Assembly (NCBI GenBank): GCA_021815365.1
Contig: JAKAGZ010000022.1
Span: forward strand, 1 to 32,537
Length of the DNA: 32,537 bases
Source: Bacteroidota bacterium
Lineage (GTDB): Bacteria; Bacteroidota; Ignavibacteria; Ignavibacteriales; Ignavibacteriaceae
Reading direction: 5' to 3'
Each line of letters starts with the position of its first letter. Position 1 is the stretch's first letter. Made by a program: the position numbers and the translations under genes. Positions 23,102 to 29,933 of the stretch are shown here, piece after piece. The notes beneath the pieces were generated by a model, which was not told the origin of the DNA, made no database searches, and saw nothing but the letters and a program-made list of their open reading frames with translations.

Positions 23102-23740
23102 ATGAAGAGCAATATAGTTCCGGTTGTTTCAATCATTTTAACCGTCTACAACCGGCAGGAATATCTTAAGAGATGCGTTGATTCAATTATTCATCAAAGC
23201 TTTAAGGATTGGGAAGTGATTGCCATAGACGATGGAAGTGAAGATGGTTCAGTACAGATTCTGGAAGAATACGAGGTAAAATTTCATAATGTTAGATTGA
23301 TAAAACAAGACAACATAAAGCTTGCAAGAAGCAGAAACCGTGGAATTGAGGTAGCCGGGTTGAAATATTTAACTTTTATTGACAGTGATGATGAGTACTC
23401 AGTGGATCATATTCAACGACGCGTTGACTTTATGGAAGCAAACAAAAACGTGGATTTTATTCATGGCGGAGTAAAAATAATTGGTAATGAATACGTCAGG
23501 GATAAAAACGATCCCCATAAATTTATTCATCTTTCTGAATGTTCAATAGGCGGGACTTTTTTCGGAAGAACAGAAGTGTTCCGCAGGCTGAATGGTTTTA
23601 GGAATATTCCCTATAGTGAAGATTCTGATTTTCTTGAAAGAGCCGAAAAGCTGTTCAATATCAGGAAGGTTAATTTTGATACATACATTTATCACCGTGA
23701 ATCAGAAAACAGCATTACTAATTCTTATGTTCCCCAATAA
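23102..23740 (+). CDS. Glycosyltransferase family 2, short
   Basis: A 212-residue GT-A fold inverting glycosyltransferase. N-terminal motif SIILTVYNRQEYLKRCVDSI (about residues 10-29), nucleotide-binding EVIAIDDGSEDGS (Asp43, Asp44) and the metal-binding TFIDSDDEYS (Asp94-Asp97) are all present, followed by GGTFFGR and the acceptor-side SEDSDFLERA. It probably adds a sugar to a surface glycan from a UDP- or GDP-sugar on the inner face of the membrane. It is shorter than most GT2 enzymes (250 or more) but has all core motifs, so it appears complete. A GAGG site precedes the ATG. Its end overlaps the rluE-like start by 14 bases. Confidence 0.9.
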   Translation: MKSNIVPVVSIILTVYNRQEYLKRCVDSIIHQSFKDWEVIAIDDGSEDGSVQILEEYEVKFHNVRLIKQDNIKLARSRNRGIEVAGLKYLTFIDSDDEYSVDHIQRRVDFMEANKNVDFIHGGVKIIGNEYVRDKNDPHKFIHLSECSIGGTFFGRTEVFRRLNGFRNIPYSEDSDFLERAEKLFNIRKVNFDTYIYHRESENSITNSYVPQ

Positions 23741-24305
23741 CTTCAGTTATTATATTGTGCATAAACCCTACGGTATGCTTTCGCAGTTTACCGATAAGGC
23801 TGGAAGAAAAACTTTATCAGGGCTTTATAATTTTCCGAAGAATGTTTACCCTGTCGGAAGGCTGGATCTGGACAGCGAAGGGTTGCTTCTTTTAACAGAC
23901 GACAAAACTCTTACTGATTATCTTTTAAATCCGCTTAACTCTCATGAAAAGGAATATTATGTTCAGGTTGAAAAAATACCGACTGAAAAAGAGTTAAATA
24001 GATTAAAAGAAGGTATCGAAATTGAAGGCAAAAAAACATTACCTGCAAAAGTTAAAATGATTGACCTACCTGATTTTCCTGCAAGAGTTCCGCCAATCAG
24101 AGAAAGAAAAAATATACCAAGCTGCTGGCTGAGTCTTGTCATAACCGAAGGGAGAAACAGGCAGGTAAGAAAAATGACGGCAAAAATCGGCTATCCAACA
24201 TTGAGGCTTGTCAGAGTCAGAATTAAAAATTTACTTTTAGGCAATTTAATTTCCGCTGGTGTAAGAGAGCTTACACCAGAAGAAATAAAAGGTTTAAGAA
24301 AGTAA
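23727..24305 (+). CDS. rluE: 23S rRNA pseudouridine synthase, RluE-like
   Basis: A 192-residue RsuA-family pseudouridine synthase lacking an S4 domain. It matches E. coli RluE, which modifies U2457 of 23S rRNA: HKPYGMLSQFTDKAGRKTL near the N-terminus, the catalytic YPVGRLDLDSEGLLLLT (Asp47) and LVITEGRNRQVRKM with LRLVRVRI further on. The frame is open upstream to 23592, but ATG at 23727 gives the normal family N-terminus and overlaps the GT2 gene by 14 bases, which suggests coupled translation. The pairing with a glycosyltransferase is probably accidental. Assignment to RluE rather than RluB/RsuA rests on length and motif similarity. Confidence 0.9.
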   Translation: MFPNNFSYYIVHKPYGMLSQFTDKAGRKTLSGLYNFPKNVYPVGRLDLDSEGLLLLTDDKTLTDYLLNPLNSHEKEYYVQVEKIPTEKELNRLKEGIEIEGKKTLPAKVKMIDLPDFPARVPPIRERKNIPSCWLSLVITEGRNRQVRKMTAKIGYPTLRLVRVRIKNLLLGNLISAGVRELTPEEIKGLRK

Positions 24306-24493
24306 TAATCCTCTAATTTTAACATCACTTATTTTTTCTGTTTCTCAACAACAATTTTTTCGGTTCAGAGGATGAAATTTATTTGCATGAATAAAAAAAT
24401 TTCAGGCAGATAAATGGATTTTCCATGCAGATTGAAAATATTTCTATCCAGGATAATCTCTTACATAATAATTAGTTAGAATCTGATTTCCAT
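24306..24493. other. Intergenic stretch before the lipoprotein module
   Basis: Gene-free, AT-rich. I see no hairpin terminator after the rluE-like stop. It leads into the promoter-like boxes at 24494-24522. Confidence 0.35.
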
Positions 24494-24522
24494 TTGGCAC
24501 AATAATTTACACAGATTATTAA
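24494..24522 (+). promoter_or_regulatory. Candidate promoter of the lipoprotein-barrel module
   Basis: TTGGCA (24494-24499), 17 bases, then TATTAA (24517-24522): a fair housekeeping-type -35/-10 pair. Transcription would start near 24529, leaving a leader of about 33 bases with a strong AAGGAG ribosome site ahead of the ATG at 24562. Confidence 0.5.
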
Positions 24523-24561: not shown

Positions 24562-25527
24562 ATGGATAGAAAAGAACGTGCAGCATTAGTTAAGTACCTG
24601 ATTGCTTATGCAATTGTGGGTCTATTTATCTTTTTAGTGGGATGCAAAGATTCTGTTACAAATCCTGTTACAGACAACACTACTTTAAAAACCGCAGACA
24701 AACAGGCTATACAGCAAATTGCAGAGCAGGATTCTGCAGTTGCATCGTTTGATGCTAATTTTGATGAAGATCAGTCTATGAGTTTTCTTAGTAAAGAAGC
24801 GACTGCAATTTATCCGGTTTTTGTATGGCATCATGTAATATTGGTTAACAAAAGCTGGTCTTACAATATAGTTGGAGACACAGCTTACGTAACACTAACC
24901 AAATCGTTTGAAGGAGTTCTGAACATTGCAGCATCTACAACCGGCTCGGGACCCCGTACAAAACCCGACACTATAATTACTAAAGCATTTGCAACAACTA
25001 TAACAAGAAAGTTAATATTTGCACACAGAGACAGTACATCAAATCCACTTTTAAACTGGAAGCTTGTTGCAATTTCTCTGCCGCAAGGTGGAACGAATAC
25101 AAATAACATAGTAATAAATAAACTCACACTAACTTTTTCCAGTGGTAAACAAATTGTTATTACCTCTCCTAACGATTATTTCTTTTCAAGAGGACCAAAA
25201 GCCTGGGGACATTTTCCTGAGTTAAAAAGAAATGATAGTTTAACTGTAAATGTGGAGATATATAGTGCTTATGCCGATACAGATTTTGTAACCGTTACTT
25301 ATGGAGCAGATAAATTCGGACATCATAGAGAAAACAGAAAATTAAAATTAATTTCAAGTACTCCTTCCGGCAGCGGGTTTGTAAAAGTTTTTGAGCAAAC
25401 GTACAGGTCCCGACAATATCCCGGCTTCTTCCATGCTGTGATAAACGCATTTACAAAACAAACGATATACGATGACCAGGCACCTGTGGAAGCTAAGTTC
25501 TGGGGTATTCCTTATCTGGTCAGATAA
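24562..25527 (+). CDS. Lipoprotein of unknown function (first gene of module)
   Basis: A 321-residue lipoprotein. The signal is long, with a charged head (MDRKERAALVKY) and then a helix to the lipobox FLVGC, Cys28. Mature region: a Thr/Asn-rich linker and Gln/Ala-rich segment (about 29-60), then beta-rich sequence with many short strands (SWSYNIVGDTAYVTLTKSFEG, LTFSSGKQIVITSP, DSLTVNVEIYSAYADTDFV). WGHFPELKR and GFFHAVINAF contain possible ligand-binding aromatic/His residues, but I recognise no domain. A strong ribosome site and promoter-like boxes precede it and a hairpin terminator follows, so it can be expressed alone. Its neighbours also encode exported, beta-rich proteins, suggesting a shared envelope role. 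Confidence 0.75.
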   Translation: MDRKERAALVKYLIAYAIVGLFIFLVGCKDSVTNPVTDNTTLKTADKQAIQQIAEQDSAVASFDANFDEDQSMSFLSKEATAIYPVFVWHHVILVNKSWSYNIVGDTAYVTLTKSFEGVLNIAASTTGSGPRTKPDTIITKAFATTITRKLIFAHRDSTSNPLLNWKLVAISLPQGGTNTNNIVINKLTLTFSSGKQIVITSPNDYFFSRGPKAWGHFPELKRNDSLTVNVEIYSAYADTDFVTVTYGADKFGHHRENRKLKLISSTPSGSGFVKVFEQTYRSRQYPGFFHAVINAFTKQTIYDDQAPVEAKFWGIPYLVR

Positions 25528-25545
25528 ATATATCTGGCACTGTTG

Positions 25546-25579
25546 AGAGAATGCCCCGTGAGGGCATTCTCTGTTTTTA
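25546..25579 (+). terminator. Rho-independent terminator, or attenuator, after first lipoprotein
   Basis: A perfect 11-base stem (agagaatgccc, 25546-25556; gggcattctct, 25562-25572) with a 5-base loop, followed by a short T-run (about 25574-25578). It lies 19 bases past the stop of the first lipoprotein. Some read-through into the next genes is possible. Confidence 0.85.
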
Positions 25580-25665
25580 AATTGGAATAGTTCCTTTCTT
25601 TGAAGGGCTTAATGAAAGAGAAAATCAATTGCTAATGAACTATCACAATGTTAAGTTAAACTAAA

Positions 25666-26574
25666 ATGAAAAAGTTAAGTTTATATTTTGGAATTCTTCT
25701 GCTGTCCGGCTTGCTCATACTTGGGTGTGACAAGCCAGCACCAACCGAGCTTGTGCAGGACCAAAACCAGCTACAGGTGCAGGTTATTGCCAAAGATACA
25801 CAGGATGAATTTTACAGCAATGGTTTCGATACTACGGGCGTTGTCAGCGACCTGTCAAAGTTACAGAACGTTATTACTGTGACTGGTGCAAAGATTACTT
25901 ATCAAAACTTTACTGCCAAGGCTTCGCTTGCACAAACAATTTTTTTTGATATGAAGATGCCTGTTCATACGCAGCACGGTAGGATTGTTGGTTATAGAAC
26001 AGTTACACCTGGTACAGTAAAATTTAATGGTATAACTGCCAAACAAATACCTTTAAGAGTAATGTTCAGAGATCACGGAAGCTTTGGTGATTCTCTTCTC
26101 GGTGACAGGTACGTTTTATACAGCGGAAGAAATAATAATGTAAATCCATTCAATTATACAGCAGGATCCTTTGTCGGCTATTTCTTTAAGCCCGATAGTA
26201 TGGGAAGAGCGGTAAGTTTCAATATTAGAACACCCGCTGAAATAAATGCTAATGTTAAGATTAAAGGATCAAGGAAAAATAATAATCTTGAAGCAACACT
26301 TGAGTGGGATAATAGTTCTGCAGACCCGGTAGAAATAATTTTAGGCGCGTGGGTGCGTAACAGTAATTTAGCTTTTCCTCTTTACAGAATTAAACCAAAG
26401 GATAATGGAAGAGTAAAACTTCCAGCCAGTTTATTGAATTCTATTCCTCAGGACAAATTTGATAAATTTATTTTTACTTTTATAAGAAGAAATGAAGGTA
26501 CGCAGCCCTTTCTGAATGACAGGCTGCACATTAAGTCGCAAACTATTCATACAATAATTGTTGATATTCCTTGA
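25666..26574 (+). CDS. Lipoprotein of unknown function (second gene of module)
   Basis: A 302-residue lipoprotein with a classical signal (residues 1-20, LLILGC, Cys21). After a Gln/Val-rich linker the mature chain is predicted all-beta: KITYQNFTAKASLAQTIFF, GTVKFNGITAKQIPLRVMF, VSFNIRTPAEINANVKI, LEATLEWDNSSADPVEIIL, FIFTFIRRNEG. It may hold two or three immunoglobulin-like or jelly-roll sandwiches, but no family is recognised. No clear ribosome site is seen. Its stop overlaps the start of the next gene by 4 bases (ttga), so the two proteins are likely made together and may form a complex at the outer membrane. Confidence 0.75.
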   Translation: MKKLSLYFGILLLSGLLILGCDKPAPTELVQDQNQLQVQVIAKDTQDEFYSNGFDTTGVVSDLSKLQNVITVTGAKITYQNFTAKASLAQTIFFDMKMPVHTQHGRIVGYRTVTPGTVKFNGITAKQIPLRVMFRDHGSFGDSLLGDRYVLYSGRNNNVNPFNYTAGSFVGYFFKPDSMGRAVSFNIRTPAEINANVKIKGSRKNNNLEATLEWDNSSADPVEIILGAWVRNSNLAFPLYRIKPKDNGRVKLPASLLNSIPQDKFDKFIFTFIRRNEGTQPFLNDRLHIKSQTIHTIIVDIP

Positions 26575-28562
26575 GCAAAAGATTACTAATTATTTTCAGC
26601 ATAGTTATGTTTTTGAAAGTCGAAATACCGGCGCAAAGCTCATTTGAATTGAATGGTTACCAGGGCTTTTCTAAAAATACAAGTTCAATGATTGATAGTT
26701 ATGAAAGTAATCCCGGCAATTTTTCACTTATAAAAGATTGGGGGTTATTGATTTCTTATGGAAGTGAATTTTCACCCTCAGCTACAAATTCAAATTTATA
26801 CCTGGTCGCTTTATCAAAAAGCATAAATAGCCACAACCTGTCGGTTCGTTATACCCCCGGGTACCAGAAAGAATTTTTTTTCAACAACGGGCAGTCTATT
26901 ATTCTTCAGGATTCAAGTGCACAATCGTTAAGCTCAAGGTTTACTTATAAAGAATTATTTGGCTTCGGGTATTCTTATAAATTTTCTGATAACTTCAGTG
27001 CCGGCTTTGATCTCAGGTATTTTACTGAGGAGTTTAACCAGGAAACAGTGACCCCTATTTTTTCAGATTCTCTTACTTTAAAAAGAGAAAACCTGGTAGA
27101 CAATATAAATTTCTGGAAAGCAGACCTCGGAATTAATTATTCTGTAAATAATAATATTTCATTTACCCTTGCTTCAATAAACCTGATGAATTTTGGTGAG
27201 ATGCAGCCCTCTGAGCAGAACAGTATTTATGATATGAGAAAACAAAAAGGCGCTCTGATTGGAATGACATTAACCCCAGTTGAGAATTTAAAATTCAATT
27301 TCTTATACGAAACTACGCGGGCATTTCAGACCGGTTTTAACAGTTTGCTTGAAACAAGCTCAGGCAATTTCGGATTTGGACTGACCGCATTCCACGATAG
27401 ATTTCAGCAGCCATATCTAGCGGGAATAATTCCAACTATTTCCTATTCAACAAAATCTTTTGGTGTAGCTCTTTCAGGGGTAAAATATTTTTCCAACAGG
27501 AACCAGGAGAAAACGCTTTCAGATTTCCAGATGAATGGAATAAACAATATTATCAATAACCGCTACAGCTATAATAAAGCTGTTCTCTCGGTTACTTTTA
27601 GCTTAAATACAATTACTGAACAGAAAATTAAAATTCTCGATGTAAATATAGTTAAAGATATATACCCTACTTTTTCGGATTTATATATAGATAATCCTTT
27701 TGCTTACGGCAGAGTTGTGAATCTTACTGATAAGCCAATCACTGTAAAATCATCCTGCAGGATTAACAGTCTTAATATAGATAGAATACAGTCAAAGCCT
27801 GTTACAGTAAATTCAAGGGATACAGTAAATGTTCCGTTTTATACTATCATACCGGATTCGTTTACTAAAGACAAAACAGAAATATCTTATGCTGATTTTT
27901 ATGTTTCTACCGATAATAATAATCCCGATGACGAATTTCAAAAACCGGTTTTGATATACAGTGTTAATTCCTGGGATGATGTTGTATCTCACTTAAAATA
28001 TTTTATTGAGAAAGACCTGAACTTCTCAATGAACTATGCTAAAAATATTTTGAGTGAGCATAAGGGTGAGCTTGATACTATCAGCTATGCTCTATCAACA
28101 TTTTATAAAGCAAAAATTTTATTTAATGCGATTGTAAAAAATCTGGTTTATGTGGCTGACCCAAACGCAAGCTCTGATTATGTTCAGTTTCCACACCAAA
28201 CCTTAAAGATAAAAGGCGGAGATTGTGATGACCTGAGTGTTTATTACAGCTCGATTCTTGAAAGCGTAGGAGTACAGACAGCACTAGTTGACTATAAACC
28301 TCAATCAGGGCTTGGGCATGTAAGTATTTTAATTAATACCGAACTCTCTCCAAGCCAGGCAAGATTAATTACCGATAATGATACAAAATTTTTTGTAAGA
28401 AAAAACACACATGGTGTTGATGAGATCTGGATAGCCGTTGAAACAACTTCTCTTACAAATTTCGATACATCCTGGGAACTCGGGTCACAAAAATTTAATA
28501 CCGAAGCTATTTCTGATTTTGGGCTTGCAAAAAACAGAGTGCAAATTATTGATGTCGAGTAA
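26571..28562 (+). CDS. Outer-membrane-barrel-like protein fused to a transglutaminase-like domain
   Basis: A 663-residue exported protein starting at TTG in a 4-base overlap with the upstream stop. Residues 1-22 form a signal peptide. About 23-345 is Ser/Asn/Phe/Tyr-rich with regular amphipathic strands (YLVALSKSINSHNLSVRYTP, FGFGYSYKFSDNFSAGFDLR, ALIGMTLTPVENLKFNFLYE), as in PorV/FadL-type outer-membrane barrels. About 350-470 looks like an Ig-like/CARDB sandwich (FAYGRVVNLTDKPITV). The C-terminal part has GGDCDDLSVYYSSILESVGV, a transglutaminase-type nucleophile motif with Cys552, then GHVSI (His583), then IWIAVETT (Glu624), where Asp is usual. The core resembles bacterial transglutaminase-like cysteine peptidases. 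A barrel joined to such an enzyme in one chain is unusual. Activity is not shown. Confidence 0.75.
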   Translation: MSKRLLIIFSIVMFLKVEIPAQSSFELNGYQGFSKNTSSMIDSYESNPGNFSLIKDWGLLISYGSEFSPSATNSNLYLVALSKSINSHNLSVRYTPGYQKEFFFNNGQSIILQDSSAQSLSSRFTYKELFGFGYSYKFSDNFSAGFDLRYFTEEFNQETVTPIFSDSLTLKRENLVDNINFWKADLGINYSVNNNISFTLASINLMNFGEMQPSEQNSIYDMRKQKGALIGMTLTPVENLKFNFLYETTRAFQTGFNSLLETSSGNFGFGLTAFHDRFQQPYLAGIIPTISYSTKSFGVALSGVKYFSNRNQEKTLSDFQMNGINNIINNRYSYNKAVLSVTFSLNTITEQKIKILDVNIVKDIYPTFSDLYIDNPFAYGRVVNLTDKPITVKSSCRINSLNIDRIQSKPVTVNSRDTVNVPFYTIIPDSFTKDKTEISYADFYVSTDNNNPDDEFQKPVLIYSVNSWDDVVSHLKYFIEKDLNFSMNYAKNILSEHKGELDTISYALSTFYKAKILFNAIVKNLVYVADPNASSDYVQFPHQTLKIKGGDCDDLSVYYSSILESVGVQTALVDYKPQSGLGHVSILINTELSPSQARLITDNDTKFFVRKNTHGVDEIWIAVETTSLTNFDTSWELGSQKFNTEAISDFGLAKNRVQIIDVE

Positions 28563-28612
28563 AGATAAAATAATCCGGTTGCTGCCGGTAGAAAATATAA
28601 AGAGGTAAGTAT

Positions 28613-29293
28613 ATGAAAAAAGTATTAATAATTTTTATTCTAATGTGCTTTGTAGTTCCGGCTCAATCTTTTAAAGTTGAAAAGATAAAAGGAACTGTAA
28701 AAGCTCAGATCGGTTCAGAAGAAAAATGGGTTGATCTGAAAGCAGGTAATGTTGTTTATCCAAATACAACCTTAGTTACTGGTGATAAATCATTCATACT
28801 ATTAAATAATGGGAAAGTAAACTTTCTTTTAAAAGAAAACTCAGCTCTTACAGCCGCGAATATTAAAACACTCACTCTGAATGAATTGCTGCTTGCGCTG
28901 GCAATGGAGAACCTGATAAATGTTCCGAAGAGTAAAGAAGAAGTGAGATCCAGCAATACTGCAGTTTATGGAGCCGAGAACAACGGTGTTAAAACTCCAT
29001 ATATCTCAGATGATAATTTTGGAATTTTGAAACTCCATGGTGCGGAACAATTAGCAGAAAATGGCTACAGGGAATCTGCAATAGTTACTGCCAAAGAAAC
29101 TTTCAGAAAATATCCTGAAACACAAAATCTTTCCTCATACAGAATTTATTTTGCTGATCTTCTTTATGATACCGGGTTAAACGAAGAAGCTTATGACGAG
29201 TACAGCTCAATAAATAAATTGCAGCTAAACGATGGGCAGAAAAAAGAAGTTACTGAAAAACTCGAAATGCTGAGAAAGAAGCTGGCAAAATAA
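28613..29293 (+). CDS. Secreted FecR-like protein with TPR-like C-terminus
   Basis: A 226-residue protein with a signal peptide (residues 1-19). Residues 20-95 match the FecR-type beta domain: VEKIKGTVKAQIGSEEKWVD, GNVVYPNTTLVTGDKSFILL, GKVNFLLKENSALT. A helix-rich region follows and then a TPR-like stretch (LAENGYRESAIVTAKETFRK, IYFADLLYDTGLNEEAYDEY) to the C-terminus. No membrane helix is present apart from the signal, so it is not a classical anti-sigma FecR; it is probably a periplasmic surface-sensing or scaffold protein. It follows the barrel-transglutaminase gene by 50 bases, with AGAGG upstream of the ATG, so it is likely the last gene of that operon. Confidence 0.8.
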   Translation: MKKVLIIFILMCFVVPAQSFKVEKIKGTVKAQIGSEEKWVDLKAGNVVYPNTTLVTGDKSFILLNNGKVNFLLKENSALTAANIKTLTLNELLLALAMENLINVPKSKEEVRSSNTAVYGAENNGVKTPYISDDNFGILKLHGAEQLAENGYRESAIVTAKETFRKYPETQNLSSYRIYFADLLYDTGLNEEAYDEYSSINKLQLNDGQKKEVTEKLEMLRKKLAK

Positions 29294-29583: not shown

Positions 29584-29751
29584 TATAGTCTTGTCAACTT
29601 AAACGAACAGGTTTCAACAAACACCGGACGTATACAGTCAGTTTTTAGCCGGCTGATTAAAAGTCTGTCAAAGAAGAAAAAAGGTTCCGGCTCCCAATAT
29701 TCGTTTTTGATTTCAAAGAAATTTGATTTCAAGAGACCTCTGAAAAATTAA
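29584..29751 (+). pseudogene. Possible C-terminal fragment of a lost gene
   Basis: An open frame of 55 codons follows a TGA stop (29581-29583) and ends at a TAA within the left end of the palindromic element. It has no ATG. The translated text is protein-like (LVNLNEQVSTNTGRIQSVFS, then a Lys/Ser-rich stretch) but the family is not recognised, and the last residues come from the element itself. It could be the tail of a gene cut off by that element, or chance. Confidence 0.25.
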
Positions 29752-29883
29752 AAATAGAACGCGGATGACGCAGATTAAACGGATTAACACAGATCTAATC
29801 CGCGAAAATCAGCCAAATCCGTGTCTTCAGCGTGCTATTAAAAACACTGTGGCTTTATGTAATTCTATTTTTCAGAGGTCTCT
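29732..29883. repeat. Palindromic MITE-like element with ACGCGGAT/ATCCGCG core
   Basis: About 152 bases with 17-base perfect inverted ends (agagacctctgaaaaat, 29732-29748; complement at 29867-29883). A 7-base extra (taaaaat-type) duplicates the left inner edge. The core gcggatgacgcagatt (29761 onward) and the right part around ccgtgtcttcagcgt pair imperfectly, so the whole can fold into one hairpin. The words GGATGACGC, AATCCGCGAAAATCAG and AATCCGTGT are typical of an intergenic repeat type scattered through many bacterial genomes. It carries no gene. Confidence 0.75.
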
Positions 29884-29933
29884 CCAAAGGAATTTGAAAT
29901 CTGTTCCTTGCTTATTCATTAAAATAGTGGTAA

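Follow-up and report, generated by a model that had tools for sequence, protein, structure and literature searches.

What do four consecutive genes for exported proteins accomplish together, and how is their expression governed? This question is raised by a 32,537-nucleotide stretch of Ignavibacteriaceae DNA (Bacteroidota; assembly GCA_021815365.1, contig JAKAGZ010000022.1), referred to here as the window, in which the four open reading frames (ORFs) g1, g2, g3 and g4 follow one another on the plus strand between positions 24562-29293. A preliminary description made without database searches proposed that they form an undescribed envelope module with two lipoproteins, a barrel-transglutaminase fusion and a FecR-like protein. 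From comparison with related genomes we favour, at a probability of roughly 60%, an envelope operon whose expression is governed by a one-component CHASE2/sigma54 activator spanning the membrane, with the barrel-enzyme processing or displaying lipoproteins. The idea of a co-conserved envelope module stands: two of the proteins have no family, and the block is retained across genomes. The FecR label, the sigma70-type boxes and a TPR scaffold find no support. The four genes are a real set; the activator, the sigma54 promoter, the tandem repeats and the spread outside the class had been overlooked.

A conserved block of four genes

The block consists of g1 (24562-25527, a 321 amino acid lipoprotein), g2 (25666-26574, a 302 amino acid lipoprotein), g3 (26571-28562, 663 amino acids with a TTG start and barrel, immunoglobulin (Ig)-like and transglutaminase-like domains) and g4 (28613-29293, a 226 amino acid exported protein), so that the run of four plus-strand genes for exported proteins is present as first described. 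The TTGA overlap of g2 and g3 (4 bases, 26571-26574) is also real, and the same -4 junction is retained in three relatives (L052, L053, and L054).

We determined the distribution of g1 to g4, of the activator and of rpoN in a class-level sample of 149 genomes. Gene g3 is present in 36 of these (complete or truncated where a contig stops) and g4 adjoins it in nearly all of them, while g2 was detected directly in 22 genomes, every time beside g3 and only within the block. Profile annotation gives the same gene order and strand, g1-g2-g3-g4, across the fetched regions, and an identical order was found in a second sample of 80 named loci from Bacteroidota/Ignavibacteria-type assemblies, which overlaps the first in part. 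The co-conservation across genomes that had been suggested as a check is thus borne out, and because the block is kept in dozens of genomes a chance neighbourhood is excluded. Gene g1 is more broadly distributed (60/149 genomes) and is solitary in several families, and in family f17 a different lipoprotein takes its place. Judged from these sequences, Ignavibacteria and lineages related to them have conserved g1 to g4 as an operon-like block.

A CHASE2-sigma54 activator and its predicted target sites

In most lineages the gene directly before g1, on the same strand, codes for a protein with a CHASE2 domain, transmembrane segments and a Sigma54_activat domain. These activators match Pfam CHASE2 at 1e-25 to 1e-36 and Sigma54_activat at about 1e-70, and have a conserved C-terminal helix-turn-helix (HTH)-like region. 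A search with the C-terminal region recovers orthologues in 38 of the 149 genomes, of which 34 belong to the group of 36 with g3; both genes are present in 34 genomes, g3 only in two, the activator only in four and neither in 109 (Fisher 1e-26, a count that ignores shared ancestry). The window genome carries its activator on another contig (G000:C107:122122-124593, or L095:10123-12594); this 823 amino acid protein is a CHASE2 sensor (5.3e-29, 102 bits against a cut-off of 26.3, residues 26-304) with hydropathy peaks at 12-30, 288-306 and 321-359, and its Sigma54_activat match (5.2e-69) and visible GAFTGA motif place it among the enhancer-binding AAA+ proteins. It lies in a cluster (L095:5977-12594) that starts with rpoN, identified by search, continues with an NnrU-like gene, hslV and hslU, recognized by eye, and ends with the activator itself; a very similar cluster is found in genomes G125, G130, and G135. 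An rpoN gene is present in 147/149 genomes, including that of the window.

In several families the genes upstream of the activator encode a TPR lipoprotein, a DUF4292 lipoprotein and an M23 peptidase (L064:645-4384, assigned by Pfam, and L066:675-4311 and L105:5804-9560, read by eye), which may belong to a more extensive envelope cluster.

Upstream of g1 the window contains a sigma54-type (-24/-12) promoter-like site, TTGGCACAATAATTTACA, on the plus strand at 24494-24511, with a perfect -24 box and a degenerate -12 box. The relaxed pattern TGGCA[CT]N5[TA]T[GT] precedes the block's leading gene in 22 of 29 genomes and is found at none of 177 control ORFs from the same regions, and the strict form, ending in TTG, in 17 of 29 against 0/177; in the named set the relaxed pattern is found at 34/64 block upstreams and 1/335 controls. 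The site at g1 is the single match in the entire 32.5 kb window, and no sigma54-type site was seen by eye upstream of the solitary g1 copies (L085-L088). The promoter-like boxes of the preliminary description, which are of sigma70 type, are at the level expected by chance (21 found compared to 19.2 +/- 4.7 by shuffling), and the signal is of sigma54 type instead.

Approximately 60-150 bp further upstream of the promoter there is a direct repeat of CNNGCA whose period is 21 or 22 bp. It is found in 22/29 genomes and 1/176 control ORFs, no other spacing giving a similar peak, and in the named set at 51/64 block upstreams and 2/335 controls. In the window it takes the form CAGGCA-N15-CATGCA (24403-24429, plus strand, period 21 bp), an enhancer-like tandem repeat and putative upstream activating sequence. 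Such a repeat arises in 0.26% of dinucleotide shuffles of the 420-bp stretch, and the ordered combination of repeat and promoter in 0/5000 shuffles of the window's upstream stretch. The enhancer pair is near-unique to the block genome-wide in the genomes scanned: in 18 genomes the pattern mostly leads back to the block, and the extra matches that were read lie mostly in coding sequence. The exception is G004 (L189:549-1340 and 2012-2073), where the same tandem repeat precedes a DUF4382-like lipoprotein gene. A sigma54-type site also precedes another lipoprotein gene in that genome, the extra sites hinting at a small regulon. The HTH of the activator varies with the repeat, SRTxVSEN being found with CAGGCA/CATGCA and NRGTVAEY with CCCGCA/CCAGCA/CCGGCA.

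A phylum-wide search recovered diverged activators together with diverged g3 genes in other classes. Six genomes (G149, G243, G473, G157, G153, and G161) show a 4-base overlap between the activator gene and g3, with a g4-like gene next in line, suggesting that activator, g3 and g4 are the core of the system and that the lipoproteins vary. A lipoprotein gene lying upstream in G149 and G473 is itself preceded by a sigma54-type site.

Taken together, these sequence patterns make it very likely that the block is under CHASE2/sigma54 control. Several observations weigh against this interpretation. The relaxed promoter pattern is missing from a quarter to half of the block upstreams, and in the window itself the -12 box is poor, with TTTAC for TTGCW. 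The covariation of HTH and repeat involves mainly two clades and may reflect a single split. In addition, the activator is unlinked from the block in family f1, and the CHASE2 match shortens or is lost altogether in the most diverged activators. The unlinked activator, together with the solitary g1 copies, could also point to conserved neighbours with unrelated roles and to a coincidental promoter and repeat; we consider this extremely improbable given the co-occurrence, the spacing and the enrichment of promoter and repeat in two genome sets, as well as the activator-g3 gene overlap outside the class.

The barrel-enzyme and its putative partners

The predicted structure of g3 (pLDDT 84.5) begins with a barrel, residues 21-350 matching FadL/PorV-type barrels at VIA Z 20-23 and so belonging with them. 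The barrel domain proper (approximately residues 55-347; 26733-27611, plus strand) resembles TodX, FadL, PorV and BAM-associated barrels; its closest structural neighbours are TodX, CymD and FadL (Z 20-23), with PorV (8gl6_F) at Z 20.9 and a Flavobacterium BAM-associated barrel (9n2d_B) at Z 20.2. NCBIfam PorV_fam matches at 2.2e-4, but at 20.9 bits against a cut-off of 90 g3 is not a member of the curated PorV/PorQ family (NF033709). An Ig-like domain (about residues 351-462) is followed by the transglutaminase-like domain (about residues 470-663; 27978-28562, plus strand). Pfam Transglut_core matches 35/35 g3 relatives (best 2.2e-6), the window protein scoring 21.4 bits, slightly below the curated 23. 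The catalytic-type residues Cys552 (28224-28226), His583 (28317-28319) and Glu624 (28440-28442), all on the plus strand, are conserved in 34/35, 35/35 and 35/35 relatives respectively, and the motifs are also present in g3 copies outside the class. Profile and residues together assign the C-terminus to the transglutaminase-like superfamily, and the barrel-transglutaminase fusion that had been read from the sequence is confirmed by Transglut_core, PorV_fam and the predicted structure. A match to NCBIfam ProA was rejected as far under the cut-off (14.4 compared to 1500 bits). Both ends of the FadL barrel face the periplasm, and by analogy the Ig-like and transglutaminase-like domains of g3 should therefore do so too.

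In one g3 relative (L084:2780-4786) Tyr replaces the catalytic Cys while His and Glu are retained, representing either an inactive copy or a sequencing error. A second family of about 836-858 amino acids (L090:7792-10347, L090:10359-12581, and L089:8700-11210) bears the g3-type Ig-like and transglutaminase-like region with a TPR motif and without the barrel; at L090 a barrel-less gene of this type is followed by a CHASE2-adenylate/guanylate cyclase, another pairing of CHASE2 with a transglutaminase-like protein.

The structural neighbours TodX, CymD and FadL raise the question of whether the operon simply serves FadL-type uptake of hydrophobic compounds, the transglutaminase-like domain being a structural extension, and sigma54 does often control catabolic operons. 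We find this improbable, because the PorV and BAM-associated barrels lie within 1-3 Z of these neighbours with higher identity (14% and 11-12%), the g3 Cys, His and Glu are conserved in 34-35/35 relatives, and no catabolic genes were recognized in the neighbourhoods read.

The lipobox cysteines of the two lipoproteins are invariant, Cys28 in 26 relatives of g1 and Cys21 in 28 relatives of g2. Neither protein matches a Pfam or NCBIfam family, and no family is matched consistently by these relatives, in agreement with the earlier statement that neither belongs to a nameable family. The predicted model of g1 (pLDDT 86.6) has a C-terminal Ig-like beta domain (residues 172-321) to which all structural matches are confined, the beta sandwiches matched being of Wzt CBD/RhoGDI/NPC2 type at a VIA Z of about 9; because a Z near 9 reflects a common arrangement, we draw no function from it. 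In the same model the N-terminal alpha+beta half looks NTF2-like by eye. An iterated hidden Markov model search mixed g1 with g2, but we do not regard them as homologues, the alignment being limited to signal peptide and lipobox.

Between the two genes lies the internal hairpin of the preliminary description (25546-25572), which is real: at -19.1 kcal/mol its z is -3.8, and none of 200 shuffles matches it. With the T tract that follows (25546-25577, plus strand) it forms a terminator-like element and putative partial terminator, supported by folding energy and a terminator scan match. Most relatives have a hairpin of differing sequence at the same g1-g2 position, and this recurrence suggests that g1 is made in excess of g2-g4, as where the first gene of an operon encodes the major product.

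The fourth protein, g4, has a signal-peptide-like start, a short beta module at its N-terminus with weak similarity to the LapA retention module, and a helical C-terminal half. NCBIfam retention_LapA is matched weakly by 17/21 relatives (best 3.6e-6). The FecR-like label is not sustained, since Pfam FecR (PF04773) matches 0/21 relatives and an hhalign comparison with genuine FecR domains aligns 30 columns at 43% probability; PF04773 also has no match in the window's own genome. The proposed role as a TPR scaffold fares no better, with a single weak TPR match among the 21 relatives (E 0.016). The retention-module similarity and the neighbouring transglutaminase-like domain recall the Lap adhesin switch, with its transglutaminase-like protease LapG and the retention module of LapA, but we rejected this assignment: the match is weak and partial, g4 has no conserved di-alanine cleavage site by eye, Peptidase_C93 (PF06035, LapG) is absent among the 14 Pfam families matched by 35 g3 relatives, and no GGDEF/EAL receptor partner was seen.

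A predicted path from sensor to surface

On this evidence we propose that CHASE2, outside the inner membrane, would sense some envelope condition, and that the cytoplasmic AAA+ domain, with its C-terminal HTH bound to the tandem 21-bp repeat, would trigger opening by sigma54 RNA polymerase at the -24/-12 promoter in front of g1. The hairpin after g1 would be leaky, with g1 made most and g2-g4 less. The products would be two lipoproteins, an outer-membrane FadL/PorV-type barrel-enzyme and the small periplasmic partner g4, and in the likeliest role the Cys-His-Glu domain would cleave or transamidate the co-made lipoproteins or partners at the barrel, leading to surface assembly or display. The two lipoprotein families may be natural substrates of the barrel-enzyme, as the preliminary description had suggested, but we rate such action of the enzyme domain on them as less likely than not. 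Comparison between genomes thus supports the regulatory half of the picture well, and the enzymatic half, above all the substrate, is an inference.

The same components could instead constitute a cell-surface signalling loop, in which barrel and periplasmic domains, with g4 as messenger, report the state of the outer membrane to CHASE2 in a FecA-FecR-FecI-like feedback, the module being mainly a sensor. In other classes the genes for the activator, g3 and g4 either adjoin one another directly or overlap, joining sensor and barrel in one unit, and the BiofilmReg operon of Burkholderia provides an example of CHASE2 paired with a FecR-domain protein (PMC5192318). We nonetheless think this unlikely, because g4 is no confirmed FecR, a conserved Cys-His-Glu enzyme domain would be superfluous for signalling, and two lipoproteins with a hairpin after g1 suggest a product made in quantity. 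The FecA-FecR-FecI system is similar in that barrel, exported partner and transcription regulator form one unit in some lineages, but the block has a FadL-type and not a TonB-dependent barrel, and a sigma54 activator rather than an extracytoplasmic function (ECF) sigma factor.

Returning to the envelope operon with a dedicated activator, its parts belong to known superfamilies, and the combination was not found in the open-licence PMC literature searched. The activator shares with NtrC-family enhancer-binding proteins an AAA+ domain with GAFTGA and Walker A/B motifs, a C-terminal HTH-like region and a sigma54 promoter with upstream tandem sites, but differs in that its sensor is a periplasmic CHASE2 with transmembrane helices and no receiver, GAF or PAS domain; searches of that literature for CHASE2 together with sigma-54, sigma54 or enhancer-binding returned nothing. 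The g3 barrel has the fold of PorV/PorQ and FadL/TodX (Z 20-23; PorV_fam 2.2e-4) but is distinguished by its C-terminal Ig-like and transglutaminase-like fusion and by its score below the curated PorV cut-off; nothing relevant was found there for PorV with transglutaminase or Ignavibacteria with transglutaminase. The BiofilmReg operon, where a histidine kinase carries the CHASE2 domain and the other products include a response regulator and a protein of LysM-FecR type, likewise has a CHASE2 sensor alongside exported envelope proteins, but has neither a barrel-transglutaminase nor a sigma54 activator (PMC5192318). A defence system was also considered and rejected, as the four block proteins match nothing in PADLOC and the activator matches RtcR models only via the AAA region.

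The signal sensed by CHASE2 domains is not known (PMC5192318). In the present case a CHASE2 sensor can be matched to an operon predicted to be its dedicated target, for which both a promoter and an enhancer-like site are defined. Some lineages have the sensor gene overlapping the gene for the outer-membrane barrel-transglutaminase-like enzyme. A route from signal to output that spans both membranes is thereby open to testing in a bacterial group that is large but little studied. It is conceivable, though doubtful, that this is a new class of envelope device, in which the transmembrane CHASE2-sigma54 activator and the barrel with its periplasmic cysteine-type enzyme are one genetic unit; surface processing of dedicated lipoproteins and transcription of the operon would then form a closed loop that needs neither a kinase nor an ECF sigma factor.

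Two further features of the window flank the block. Between g4 and rimP, at 29731-29890, there are inverted-repeat flanks, AGAGACCTCTGAAAAATTAAAAATAG and CTATTTTTCAGAGGTCTCT, like those of a small mobile or decayed element, with no ORF seen. On the other side, a pseudouridine synthase ORF at 23592-24305 (PseudoU_synth_2, 7.3e-23) shares about 150 bases with the glycosyltransferase ORF before it, and the true start of the synthase ORF is probably later.

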